Origin: Pseudanabaena frigida
Lineage (GTDB): Bacteria > Cyanobacteriota > Cyanobacteriia > Pseudanabaenales > Pseudanabaenaceae
Direction: 5' to 3'
Assembly (NCBI GenBank): GCA_003242085.1
Contig: QBML01000003.1
Span: forward strand, 1 to 64,000
DNA length: 64,000 nucleotides
Below the pieces are notes generated by a model, which saw nothing but the letters and a program-made list of their open reading frames with translations, searched no databases and was not told the DNA's origin. Position 1 is the first letter of the stretch. Each line of letters begins with the position of its first letter. Made by a program: the position numbers and the translations under genes. Below are positions 44,447 through 50,584 of the stretch, piece by piece.

Positions 44447-44800
44447 ATGAATCAACTAAAACGCTCTCCTTGTCCTATTGCTTGCACGCTAGATTTAGTC
44501 GGCGATCGCTGGACATTACTGGTAATCCGAGACATGATGTTCTTCGGAAAGCAGCGCTTTGAAGAATTTCTAGAATCACCAGAAGGAATTTCCACAAATA
44601 TTTTGGCTAATCGGCTTAAACTGCTTGAAGATCTAGAACTCATAGAGAAGCAACCTTATAGCAATCATTCCCGACGGATGAATTATCAATTGACAGAGAA
44701 AGGAAAAAGTCTTCGCCCAGTTTTGAAAGTGATTGGAATTTGGGGTTTAAAATATATCACTGACACTAAGGTTCTGAAAACTAATTCTTTAGATGCATAG
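44447..44800 (+). CDS. HxlR-family winged-helix regulator
   Basis: A 117-residue DNA-binding protein. The sequence CPIACTLDLVGDRWTLLVIRDMMFF, ISTNILANRLKLLEDLELIEK and the wing HSRRMNYQLTEKG are typical of HxlR/YodB proteins, redox- or aldehyde-responsive repressors and activators. The Cys in SPCPIACT could be the thiol sensor. The gene is divergent from the thioesterase gene, a likely target. Confidence 0.93.
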   Translation: MNQLKRSPCPIACTLDLVGDRWTLLVIRDMMFFGKQRFEEFLESPEGISTNILANRLKLLEDLELIEKQPYSNHSRRMNYQLTEKGKSLRPVLKVIGIWGLKYITDTKVLKTNSLDA

Positions 44801-47697: not shown

Positions 47698-47998
47698 GAT
47701 CCACAAATTACTCACAAAGTAGGTTTAGCCGATCGCCTCTCCAATCGCCCCAATCAACTTTCTAGCGGACAACAACAACGAGTTGAGATCGCCCCCCGTC
47801 AATCAACCCGCTCTTCTTCTAGCCGATGAGCCGACGGGTGCGCTAGATTCCAAAACTTCGCAGAGAGCAATGAATTTGTTTGGCATTCTCAATACCCAAG
47901 ACATCACAATTGTCATCGTCACCCACGAGCCAGATATCGCCGCCCAAACTAAGCGAAAGATTTTCGTACAAGATGGTGCGCGTTGGCTAAGCTACTAA
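47698..47998 (+). pseudogene. Truncated, frameshifted ABC-transporter ATPase (LolD/MacB type)
   Basis: From about 47,713 the frame reads HKVGLADRLSNRPNQLSSGQ followed by QQRVEIA, which is the ABC signature region. Near the C run at 47,791-47,797 the frame shifts, and the next frame continues PALLLADEPTGALDSKTSQR to THEPDIAAQ (Walker B and H-loop) and a stop at 47,998. The Walker A half is missing. Signature Ser replaces the second Gly of LSGGQ. This is a gene relic; it marks a region of past deletion next to the ATPase/DUF4276 pair. Confidence 0.85.
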
Positions 47999-48064
47999 AG
48001 TAGCTATAGACATATTCGGTTAAAATTTAAGCAAGATCGTTAGTATTGGAAAGGAAATTATATT

Positions 48065-49294
48065 TTGTCCAACCCAGATTCCAGCACAAATCAGCCTCGC
48101 CTGTTATCATTCACCCTTGACGATTGGTCTGTTTTGGGGGGGCGAGTTACAGTGTCCTTACATGATGGTGTTGCAGTACTGGTTGGTCGCAATGGGGCTG
48201 GAAAGTCAGCCATTCTTGAAGGGTTTGAAGCAATCTCATTATGTGCAATTGGTAGGTTTAATCAACTTGTGTATGATAGTGAAAGCTTTCCTAAAATATT
48301 AGAAATCGAAATTTTAACTCCAACTGCTCGTAGACTTGAATATAGGTATGAATTTACAGCTCTTGCTAGTTCTGGTGAAGATCTGAATCTTGATGACTCT
48401 ATAGATGAAAAATCAGAAGTAAGTCGTTTTTCTTGGAATGACAACTGTCGATATATTAATGAAGTGGGAGATCCTCTTTGGACTACTGATAATGGAGTAA
48501 CAACCTTCAATACTGGGGATGCTCCAGTTATCACTGTTCTTGGGAATACTCACTCTCTCCGTCAATCAACACTCCCAGAAACCTCACCAATCAAGCTCCC
48601 TAACGAAATGCTTTGGGTTTATTCTGTTTTGAGAGGAGTTCGCTTACTAGGAAAATCTCCTATTAGACAAAGGGCTAGACGACGACCATCACAACTAAGA
48701 GTATCAAGCAAACGTATTTCTGCTAGTCTTTTCAGTCTAGGGGATATTATAGCTCGGAAAATACTACGTCTTACTGGGAAAGATGAACTATACGAGATTG
48801 AAAGCATATGTCAACGAGTTGGACTTGGCAGTAAGATATCTGTACAAAAGTTTGTTTTAAGCAGAGACTCTGGAGAAAAAATTGAAAATGACGATGAAGA
48901 ATATATTTCATCAGTATTGCTGGATGGGGTGAATATAGGGTTGCTATCTGATGGAACTCTCCGAGTCTTGTCGATTCTGATTGAAATAATTGCCTCATCT
49001 CCTAATACGACGACAATAATTGAGGAACCTGAGACACAAATTCATCCTGGTATGCTTGCAAAGTTACTGAATGAAATCGAGACCTACTCTTTTGGAGAAA
49101 ATTTGATTCTTTCGACTCATGCACCCCAAGTCGTTTCATGGACTAGTCCAGACAAAATTATTCTAGTTCATCGAGATAACGGACAGACATTTGTCCGAAA
49201 ATTAGGTGAAGATCAGATTCACAATGTTATCGAATACCTCTCTGAAGAAGGTGACTTAGGCGAATGGATTTACAGTGGTATTCTCGATGAGTAA
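48065..49294 (+). CDS. OLD/RecF-like ATPase (AAA_21 type) of a two-gene module
   Basis: A 409-residue ATPase. Start is TTG 48,065, chosen because GGAAAGGAAA lies nine bases upstream. Walker A is LVGRNGAGKS (39-48); the signature is LLSDGTLRVLSIL (about 293), and Walker B is TTIIEEPETQIHPG (about 320), followed by LSTHAPQVV with the H-loop His about 352. The order is that of ABC-type ATPases of defence systems such as OLD, Gabija-like and PARIS AriA. The next gene overlaps by eight bases and encodes a TOPRIM-like protein, so the two should form one complex. Anti-phage role is inferred from architecture only. Confidence 0.88.
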   Translation: MSNPDSSTNQPRLLSFTLDDWSVLGGRVTVSLHDGVAVLVGRNGAGKSAILEGFEAISLCAIGRFNQLVYDSESFPKILEIEILTPTARRLEYRYEFTALASSGEDLNLDDSIDEKSEVSRFSWNDNCRYINEVGDPLWTTDNGVTTFNTGDAPVITVLGNTHSLRQSTLPETSPIKLPNEMLWVYSVLRGVRLLGKSPIRQRARRRPSQLRVSSKRISASLFSLGDIIARKILRLTGKDELYEIESICQRVGLGSKISVQKFVLSRDSGEKIENDDEEYISSVLLDGVNIGLLSDGTLRVLSILIEIIASSPNTTTIIEEPETQIHPGMLAKLLNEIETYSFGENLILSTHAPQVVSWTSPDKIILVHRDNGQTFVRKLGEDQIHNVIEYLSEEGDLGEWIYSGILDE

Positions 49295-49862
49295 TATTAA
49301 GATCGCCTTAATTGCTGAGGACAATACAGACTGTGAAGCAATTCGTAAAATTGTCCATCGTGTTATTGGTGCAAATGTGACAACCCAAAAATGGGCTTCT
49401 AACGGCTGTAGTTCATTAAAGAAAAAGCTAACATCAAAGCTTAAAGTACTTTCCAGAGAAGGCTGTAGTATTTTTATTGTTGTTCATGATTTGGATCGTA
49501 ATCCTCAGAATGGTTCCCTCAACTATGAGCCAGCATTGCGTTCAAAATTAGAAGTATTATCGTCTGAAGTTAGAAGTCATAATAAACATATTTGTATTCC
49601 CATTGAAGAATTAGAAGCCTGGTTCTGGTCAGACCCAGCGGTACTCGAATATCTTGGTGGAGAAAAAGGTAAAGCACGCGTAAATCCTGACCAAATTAAA
49701 AGCCCCAAAGAAGAACTAATAAAATTATCGGTTGGAGAAAATAGAAAGCCTCGCTACAGTACCAACATGAATGTTGAATTGGCAGCGAGGCTAAATCTAG
49801 ATCTATGTTCCGATCGCTGCCCTTCATTTAAGGATCTCCTTAAGTTCCTGCGATCGCTCTAA
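49287..49862 (+). CDS. DUF4276-type TOPRIM-like partner protein
   Basis: From ATG 49,287, 191 residues; a GTG at 49,275 would add four. IKIALIAEDNTDCEAIRKIV gives the Glu11 end of a TOPRIM-like fold, IFIVVHDLDRN the DxD pair (Asp68, Asp70), and IPIEELEAWFWSDPAVLEYLG the strong DUF4276 signature. TOPRIM folds cleave or join nucleic acid or act on nucleotides. The gene overlaps the ATPase gene by eight bases. In PARIS the ATPase's partner is a DUF4435 TOPRIM; DUF4276 here is a related but different family. Confidence 0.87.
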   Translation: MSNIKIALIAEDNTDCEAIRKIVHRVIGANVTTQKWASNGCSSLKKKLTSKLKVLSREGCSIFIVVHDLDRNPQNGSLNYEPALRSKLEVLSSEVRSHNKHICIPIEELEAWFWSDPAVLEYLGGEKGKARVNPDQIKSPKEELIKLSVGENRKPRYSTNMNVELAARLNLDLCSDRCPSFKDLLKFLRSL

Positions 49863-49891: not shown

Positions 49892-50584
49892 CTAGCGATC
49901 GCTATTACCGTGAGTCGAGATCTCTAGGCAATCTTTAACGTTCAATAGAGTAATACTTTCTAATACCTTTTCAGGCTCTAAGCGACTTCGATAATCGACA
50001 TCAACATGGGCAAGTAGAATCTTCCCATTAGAGGAGATCGCAAAAGTAGCAGGAATTGGTAGTTGCCAGTCATCGGTTCCATTCATGTCTGGCAAAGCAT
50101 GACTGAATTGAGTATAGATTCGCTTTAATGCGTCTGGTAATTGATAGGCAATCCTGTATGCTTCTGCTACTAACGAACCGCGATCGCTTAGAACATCAAA
50201 ACTCAGTTGGTTTTTCTCAATAGTACTTAGCGATCGATCTGGCGTTTGCGGCGAAATCGCTATTAGACTCGCCCCTAATGCTTTAATCTGCGGCAAAATT
50301 TGCTGATAAGTGCGAAGCTCTAGATTGCAATAGGGACACCATTCACCGCGATAAAAAGTAAGAATTACTGCACCCTGTTGCAGGCGATCGCTAAGCTTGA
50401 TTTTTTTGCCAAAAGCATTGGGTAATTCAAAATCTGGTGCGCGATCGCCAACTTTAAGTAAGGATTTTGCCGCATAGTCTTCCGCGAGTTGCGTGGTCGC
50501 CTGTTCCATCGCTGCGGCTATATCAGCAGGAACCTTATTTAAAAACTCAGCACGAAAACTATCGAGAACTATTTTCAGTTGCAT
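49892..50584 (-). CDS. Peroxiredoxin-like (AhpC/TSA) protein
   Basis: A 230-residue thioredoxin-fold protein. Residues 1-40 form an N-terminal helical part; the fold starts near VGDRAPDFELPNAFGKKIKL, and FYRGEWCPYCNLELRTYQ holds a CPYC pair in place of the single peroxidatic Cys. Such proteins detoxify peroxides or alkyl hydroperoxides and are reduced by thioredoxin. The last residues (STHGNSDR) are encoded in a segment with HIP1 that recurs at 54,099. Convergent with the DUF4276 gene. Confidence 0.9.
   Translation of the reverse strand: MQLKIVLDSFRAEFLNKVPADIAAAMEQATTQLAEDYAAKSLLKVGDRAPDFELPNAFGKKIKLSDRLQQGAVILTFYRGEWCPYCNLELRTYQQILPQIKALGASLIAISPQTPDRSLSTIEKNQLSFDVLSDRGSLVAEAYRIAYQLPDALKRIYTQFSHALPDMNGTDDWQLPIPATFAISSNGKILLAHVDVDYRSRLEPEKVLESITLLNVKDCLEISTHGNSDR

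Follow-up and report, generated by a model that had tools for sequence, protein, structure and literature searches.

Reassortment of an ATPase middle segment against its DUF4276 partner in a probable OLD-type defence gene pair of Pseudanabaena

In a family of two-gene loci that couple an ABC ATPase with a DUF4276 protein, the middle of the ATPase (about residues 50–310) and the DUF4276 protein reassort against each other, as sequence comparison shows. The locus under study lies in a window of 64,000 nucleotides, the whole stretch of DNA analysed, from a cyanobacterial genome (5.39 Mb) of Pseudanabaena type. What is new and open to test is the swapping of segments; the pair itself is known in outline. 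The pair probably belongs to a divergent, HEC-01-like subfamily of split OLD-type defence modules akin to PARIS, and would act as a sensor-gated abortive nuclease.

The gene pair and its conserved residues

The ATPase gene encodes 409 aa and begins with a TTG preceded by AAAGGA. The DUF4276 gene encodes 191 aa from an ATG; a GTG at 49275 gives a longer reading in the ORF list. The letters shared by the two genes are ATGAGTAA. A first-pass annotation had described a TTG-started ATPase with a ribosome site and an eight-base overlap with a small protein, and both ORFs were found where it placed them. Of 22 other intact loci, cyanobacterial or on a viral contig, a script counted the same overlap in 21; in the 22nd (L040), read by eye, it is also eight bases if that gene's own ATG is used. 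TTG is the sole listed ATPase start in 13 of these 22 loci. The aligned region ahead of the gene begins exactly at 48008 against L013, L020, L022, L024, L026 and L038, and farther upstream against L021 and L023. The Pfam scores of the two proteins (Table 1) exceed the cut-offs of 27 bits for AAA_21 and 30.2 bits for DUF4276, and as sequence matches they are more than chance.

Table 1. Features of the ATPase–DUF4276 locus, in window coordinates
Feature	Coordinates	Strand	Basis
Degraded 3' end of ABC-transporter ATPase gene	47715..47998	+	DNA match to open congener ORFs; stop 47998
Conserved leader with ribosome site 5' of the TTG	48008..48064	+	Alignment of window with other loci
OLD/SMC-type ABC ATPase, predicted sensor/regulator	48065..49294	+	AAA_21 66.9 bits; AF2 model; VIA matches
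Walker A GRNGAGKS, residues 41–48	48185..48208	+	G41, N43, G44, G46, K47, S48 in 25/25
Variable reassorting middle, residues 61–285 as analysed; candidate recognition module	48245..48919	+	Identity and synonymous-difference comparisons
ABC signature LSDGTLR	48944..48964	+	Each residue in 23–25/25
Walker B IIEEPE	49016..49033	+	Each residue in 24–25/25
Eight-base overlap of ATPase and DUF4276 genes	49287..49294	+	Also in 21/22 other intact loci (script)
DUF4276 protein, predicted Toprim-type nuclease effector	49287..49862	+	DUF4276 41.4 bits; AF2; weak VIA match
E11 and D15, first acidic pair	49317..49331	+	Invariant 24/24; acids in 17/17 wider rows (by eye)
D68-x-D70	49488..49496	+	24/24; D68 17/17 in wider alignment
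E108-x-E110 inside EELEAW	49608..49616	+	24/24; E110 17/17 in wider alignment
HIP1-bracketed dispersed repeat, 32–33 bases 3' of pair	49894..49934	+	Copies in L026, L036–L039, L152–L155

The motifs that the annotation had named in both proteins are kept in the aligned relatives (25 ATPases and 24 DUF4276 proteins). Within Walker A, R42 occurs in 22 of the 25 ATPases and A45 in 21; H352 is found in 24/25. These counts come from 25 rows, and an alignment of 24 rows gives a similar picture. The AlphaFold2 model of the ATPase has a pLDDT of 75.6 and a pTM of 0.78, with a poorly modelled middle (pLDDT about 40 at residues 101–120). Its best VIA matches are the heads of SMC, Rad50, PtuA and AriA (Z 16–19). 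AriA and PtuA also lead the sequence comparison with solved structures, where the matches are weak (best E 0.0059).

The DUF4276 residues E11, D15, D68, D70, E107, E108, E110, A111 and W112 are invariant in 24/24 relatives, and L109 is nearly so. In a wider DUF4276 alignment of 17 rows only E11, D68 and E110 are invariant. Read by eye, position 15 keeps an acid in 17/17 of these rows, and position 70 is Tyr in 11 of the 12 rows outside the window subfamily. K141, considered as a catalytic lysine, is invariant in the subfamily yet not across DUF4276 and was dropped. The AlphaFold2 model (pLDDT 81.9, pTM 0.82) alternates strands with helices ahead of a helical part, and places E11 and D68/D70 after strands 5–10 and 62–67. 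With VIA it matched weakly both 6nk8, the C-terminal region of BpOLD (Z 8.1, 161/191 residues, rmsd 4.1), and PH0156 (2p62; Z 8.1, 156 residues). Argonaute MID domains ranked first (Z 9.3) with fewer residues aligned (113). The OLD region stands among other Rossmann-like folds with Z up to 9.3; families missing from the VIA lists were not taken as excluded. Foldseek alone gave the DUF4276 model no significant fold match (best E 0.049). The metal ligands of the OLD nuclease BpOLD are given as E400, E404, D455, D457, T506 and E508 in the available portion of PMC6755086. E11, D15, D68, D70, E108 and E110 parallel these in order and local spacing, the common spacings being +4, DxD and x-E. The model weakly resembles an OLD-like Toprim domain, and we infer from the sequence that the DUF4276 protein may be a two-metal nuclease.

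Reassortment of the ATPase middle and the DUF4276 protein

Identity of 22 related ATPases to the window protein is 68–94% at residues 8–60 and 286–409, and 36–88% at residues 61–285. In a 23rd row, the Thermoleophilian relative L041, identity is lower throughout. Segments of the operon have had separate histories, as synonymous differences show. For L037 and L038 these differences number 75/127 in the middle and 4/119 in the DUF4276 gene (Fisher 1.5e-23); the effectors differ at 1/189 residues and the whole ATPases at 147/388. Because the flanks they have in common match at 94% and 92%, the two represent one chromosomal neighbourhood, although the further genes that separate flank from pair are not the same. 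L020 and L026 are the reverse case, with 5/143 synonymous differences in the middle and 51/123 in DUF4276 (3.2e-15). For L038 and L039, both from isolates, the synonymous values are 0.59 in the middle and 0.16 in DUF4276, and the effectors differ at 6/189 residues.

Discordance between middle and effector is not general. Allele pairs close in either segment (within 0.22) make up 21 of 300, and 9 of these 21 are discordant and 12 are not. The thresholds that give 9 of 300 pairs were set after a first look, as were the sets used in the tree tests; multiplied by 300, the smallest p values would still hold comfortably. Contrasts without significance include L029/L031, L028/L032, L021/L022, L036/L037 and window/L022, among others. 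The window's own discordance is weak (p 0.25 with L022, p 0.0065 with L020). The relative closest to the window in middle (88%) and core (94%) is Planktothrix L022, and the one closest in effector is L020 (84%).

Trees were computed with LG+G4 without a mixture model. The L038 middle groups with that of L024 (support 100/100), and the L038 effector with L036, L037 and L039 (100/100). In tree tests the effector data reject the groups {L024, L038} (p 2e-30) and {L020, L023, L026, L013} (p 2e-32). The middle data reject a seven-row set named from effector similarity (p 3e-7) and the group {L036–L039}, for which the AU p of 0.0076 would not stand alone. In the middle tree, according to a warning of the program, {L024, L038} and {L036, L037, L039} have long branches that meet. 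By eye, breakpoints fall near codons 40–60 and 300–330, at the ABC motifs. Two more DUF4276 subfamilies of the genus yielded comparable pairs. In the C11-type, L001/L086 gave 0.06 in the middle and 0.49 in DUF4276, and L085/L086 gave 0.64 and 0.21; in the C10-type, L068/L069 gave 0.54 and 0.13.

A middle that merely evolves fast under relaxed constraint, its mosaic being an alignment effect, is very improbable. Gaps do occur in that segment, distant pairs align poorly there, and no other segment has so high a median pN/pS (0.41 vs 0.14–0.26). Relaxed constraint cannot lower synonymous differences, and these also fall: for L020/L026 the middle has 0.03 and DUF4276 has 0.41, and the profile steps near codon 315. 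Reassortment is the reading followed here. A middle that is exchanged independently of the effector probably does not serve to bind it, and its sequence variation suggests a surface for recognition on which selection keeps changing. The conserved motifs on either side offer homology for exchange; homologous recombination would use the ABC motifs as its anchors, in some cases without a change of chromosomal neighbourhood. A comparison is HsdS, in which specificity domains are swapped. Segment swapping in such ATPases was not found in the literature searched, which gave no text match for DUF4276.

Known relatives, distribution and proposed action

Both halves of the window pair match models of HEC-01 in PADLOC, for which no curated cut-off is shown. 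The ATPase matches HEC-01A models (E 2.4e-21), the DUF4276 protein matches HEC-01 models lettered A (E 2.4e-13) and B (E 6.8e-13), and plasmid relatives have the same gene order. The matches are nevertheless remote (at most 74 and 48 bits), and AbiLi scores the ATPase equally. The window pair also differs from HEC-01 in not being embedded between Hma genes and in having D70 where the wider family mostly has Tyr. HECs are Hma-embedded candidates; HEC-04, an ATPase–Toprim fusion, protects from T4 and T5 (available sections of PMC12111858), and several HECs are active (PMC12988326, in part). MAD3/MAD4 is a fainter likeness: the ATPase scores 52.5 bits and its partner 19.3 bits, with a mad4 PADLOC E of 2.1e-5, but these scores lie far under the NCBIfam cut-offs of 420 and 160. 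No other mad genes were noticed by eye near the window pair. AbiLi is the ATPase's best PADLOC match by a hair (E 2.3e-21), yet AbiLii is absent among the 13 matches of the DUF4276 protein at E up to 1. By sequence, then, the window pair is distantly related to HEC-01, a catalogued defence candidate, and has fainter ties to MAD3/MAD4 and AbiL.

PARIS (AriA/AriB, a class 4 OLD system) resembles the window pair in having separate genes for an ABC ATPase and a Toprim-like effector, and the AriA head aligns with the ATPase model over 264 residues (Z 16.7). It differs in its effector, which in the window is DUF4276, with no AriB/DUF4435 match at E up to 1. Class 2 OLD proteins and Gabija GajA share the predicted set of metal-binding acids. 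GajA, however, is a single chain with a UvrD-like partner gene (OLD classes are reviewed in PMC10568477, of which a part was available), whereas the window pair is two chains and the next ORF downstream, on the opposite strand, encodes AhpC/TSA. Partial texts describe ATPase–Toprim association in AbiL, MADS and PARIS and study tRNA cutting by AriB (PMC12409363), an OLD-ATPase with a PD-(D/E)xK partner, WonAB, that inhibits translation (PMC12137116), and OLD-ABC and Toprim modules near BREX (PMC12839542). The annotation had proposed a two-gene defence module with a DUF4276 effector. Its division into an OLD/PARIS-like ATPase and a likely Toprim partner holds; the idea is not new, because related pairs are catalogued (HEC-01, and parts of MADS and AbiL), and the accompanying expectation of island enrichment went unsupported.

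With the window DUF4276 protein as query, 23 loci were found among the named genomes, and one further locus on a viral contig. Its subfamily occurs in 9/26 genomes of the genus and 14/388 genomes of the class sample (five of 160 genera), which supports an accessory, patchy and horizontally moved gene pair. The Thermoleophilian L041 also has an ATPase–DUF4276 pair. DUF4276 of any kind was detected in 89/291 cyanobacterial genomes, 79 of them above cut-off. The annotation had proposed searching for DUF4276 beside AAA_21 ATPases across genomes, and an ATPase gene lies directly upstream in 28 of 30 fetched cyanobacterial loci, a count that includes L070 (ATPase seen in part) and L072 (ATPase in two ORFs). 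In the remaining two the ATPase is split by inserted genes, transposase-like by eye (L083), or the contig ends (L090). The window's own genome has five pairs on five contigs. In one of them (L008, contig C10, about 6.0–7.8 kb) the paralogous ATPase ORF is open and the DUF4276 gene is broken. In Rhizonema (L042) a deletion apparently joins the N-terminal half of the ATPase to the C-terminal half of the DUF4276 protein. The viral-contig pair (L063; 73.7 kb, viral per IMG/VR) lies near a gene resembling TnpB by eye, and among the matches listed for the PADLOC neighbour set one neighbour matches Cas12f models. Plasmid records gave no plasmid home for the window subfamily, phage records gave no match to the window DUF4276 protein, and no E. 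coli genome with a DNA match to an Aeromonas relative was found.

The annotation had named a lack of defence-island enrichment among homologous pairs as a refuting result, and for the window subfamily such enrichment was seen neither by eye nor in a coarse count. At 1e-10 the number of PADLOC families matched was 67 for 145 neighbours and 90 for 145 controls, a comparison in which the first 25 families of each set are named and the matched proteins are not. The neighbours were 145 of 148 genes of 100–900 aa within 5 kb of 19 loci, a set without L013, L134 and the window locus and also without L031, L032 and L033, which nearly duplicate L029 and L028; the controls were 145 of 184 genes from 20 regions in seven of the same genomes. 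The listed matches include one AbiEii, one AbiEi (L037 by eye) and one HEC-06 (L022 by eye) for neighbours, and pAgo, MTase_II and PD-T4-6 for controls. By eye most neighbours are not defence-like, and they differ between loci.

Another DUF4276 subfamily matched 12 plasmid records, of which 11 regions were opened. MTase-helicase, Mrr or AIPR genes stand beside the pair in 6 of the 11, namely Aeromonas media twice (same locus), A. veronii, Ideonella and two Nostoc UHCC 0870 plasmids. VapBC adjoins the Acinetobacter pair, and HNH endonuclease genes adjoin those of Scytonema and Nostoc CENA543. The Fischerella pair is surrounded mainly by transposases, and near the Piscirickettsia pair there is only a PD-(D/E)XK nuclease-like gene about 3 kb off. 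Four of the plasmid DUF4276 proteins were scanned and matched HEC-01B at 236–303 bits.

These surroundings bear on two other explanations. A Rad50/OLD-type pair with a housekeeping role in DNA or RNA repair would fit the SMC/Rad50-like head fold and the scarcity of defence-like neighbours, and has a precedent in Cran1, an OLD relative that acts in the archaeal cell cycle and not in defence (PMC12796447, available part). We consider it improbable: the pair is present in so few genomes of the genus, its neighbours vary, and broken copies exist (C10 and L042, with the ATPase split in L083 and in two ORFs in L072). An unlikely but somewhat better candidate is a stand-alone toxin-antitoxin or plasmid/island-stabilising pair, with the ATPase as antitoxin and DUF4276 as toxin, selected for its own persistence. 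The pair is a stand-alone two-gene unit at many sites, a plasmid relative adjoins VapBC, AbiE models are matched in one neighbourhood (L037) and PemK-like genes are seen by eye. PARIS itself, whose triggers are Ocr and an Arn protein, has been described as TA-like (PMC11455837). Exchange of the antitoxin middle next to a nearly constant toxin, as in L037/L038, would however be unneeded to neutralise that toxin.

The defence reading draws on the matches of both halves to HEC-01 and, weakly, to MAD3/MAD4, on the conserved pairing with an ATPase, the invariant acids, the model alignment to BpOLD, patchiness, reassortment and the defence neighbours of plasmid pairs. Against it stand the lack of enrichment around the subfamily and of phage-record matches, the single viral contig, the Foldseek result, the higher Z of Argonaute MID domains, the poorly modelled middle, the Tyr that mostly replaces the second DxD Asp in the wider family, discordance that is not general and is weak for the window, and the Cran1 precedent. 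Under the defence reading the DUF4276 Toprim nuclease would be held or gated by the ATPase. Contact of the exchangeable middle with a phage product, or with a change that the phage causes, would alter the ATP-bound state and free the nuclease onto nucleic acid, most likely host RNA such as tRNA. Abortive growth arrest would then stop infection. The sequences show the two genes with their motifs, the conserved pairing, the patchy occurrence and the reassortment of middle against effector; from these we infer that the proteins form a complex, that DUF4276 acts as a nuclease, what it cuts, what triggers it and that phage is stopped.

Segment exchange, patchiness, broken copies and plasmid relatives together fit an immune sensor. 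An evenly balanced extension is that ATPase–DUF4276 pairs are modular immune receptors, whose recognition segment, from the Walker A helix to the signature and Walker B, may be swapped independently of the effector. To our knowledge, the signal perceived by a Toprim-linked ABC ATPase has been identified in few systems. If the extension is true, the sensor specificity of OLD/PARIS-type systems becomes readable and transplantable. A swap of the middle should move phage specificity, which makes the sensor question directly testable, and natural allele pairs with near-identical effectors and differing ATPase middles would be ready-made tools.

Chromosomal surroundings of the window pair

The window pair adjoins a broken ABC-transporter gene in what the annotation took for a site of gene turnover. 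The broken gene is real and turnover is supported. Positions 47715–47976 have 85–89% DNA identity to the 3' part of ABC ATPase ORFs of 220–225 aa that are open in four congeners (G004, G014, G005 and G016). The other neighbours are cupin, AhpC/TSA, SDR, HxlR and histidine kinase genes. No clean empty site was found in congeners; the cupin and AhpC/TSA genes lie apart in G019 and G020, the sole other congeners with both. The HxlR regulator (44447–44800) lies 3.3 kb upstream of the window pair, and an 83% homologue lies about 0.9 kb downstream of the L024 pair. Contig C26 of the same genome, which has no DUF4276 match, shares blocks with the neighbourhoods of L036–L039 and two blocks with that of L026.

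A HIP1-bracketed repeat of 41–42 bases occurs within 250 bases of the pair in 8/9 Pseudanabaena pair loci, vs 3/191 control genes. Since it is likewise within 250 bases of 35/86 other genes in the pair loci, the repeat marks the neighbourhood. All 61 copies in 20 scanned pair loci are on the strand of the pair. In the first 40 kb of C26, 16/16 copies are on one strand whatever the gene direction, and the four seen on C13 are mixed. Integron integrases (TIGR02249 above cut-off) were detected in 13/26 Pseudanabaena genomes. These and the polarised repeat raised the idea of an integron cassette, which was rejected, as seven integrase regions contained 0 copies of the repeat. Among the loci inspected in this connection (L137–L151, L156 and L157), the integron integrase of L148 adjoins short self-repeats that are possibly a cassette array.
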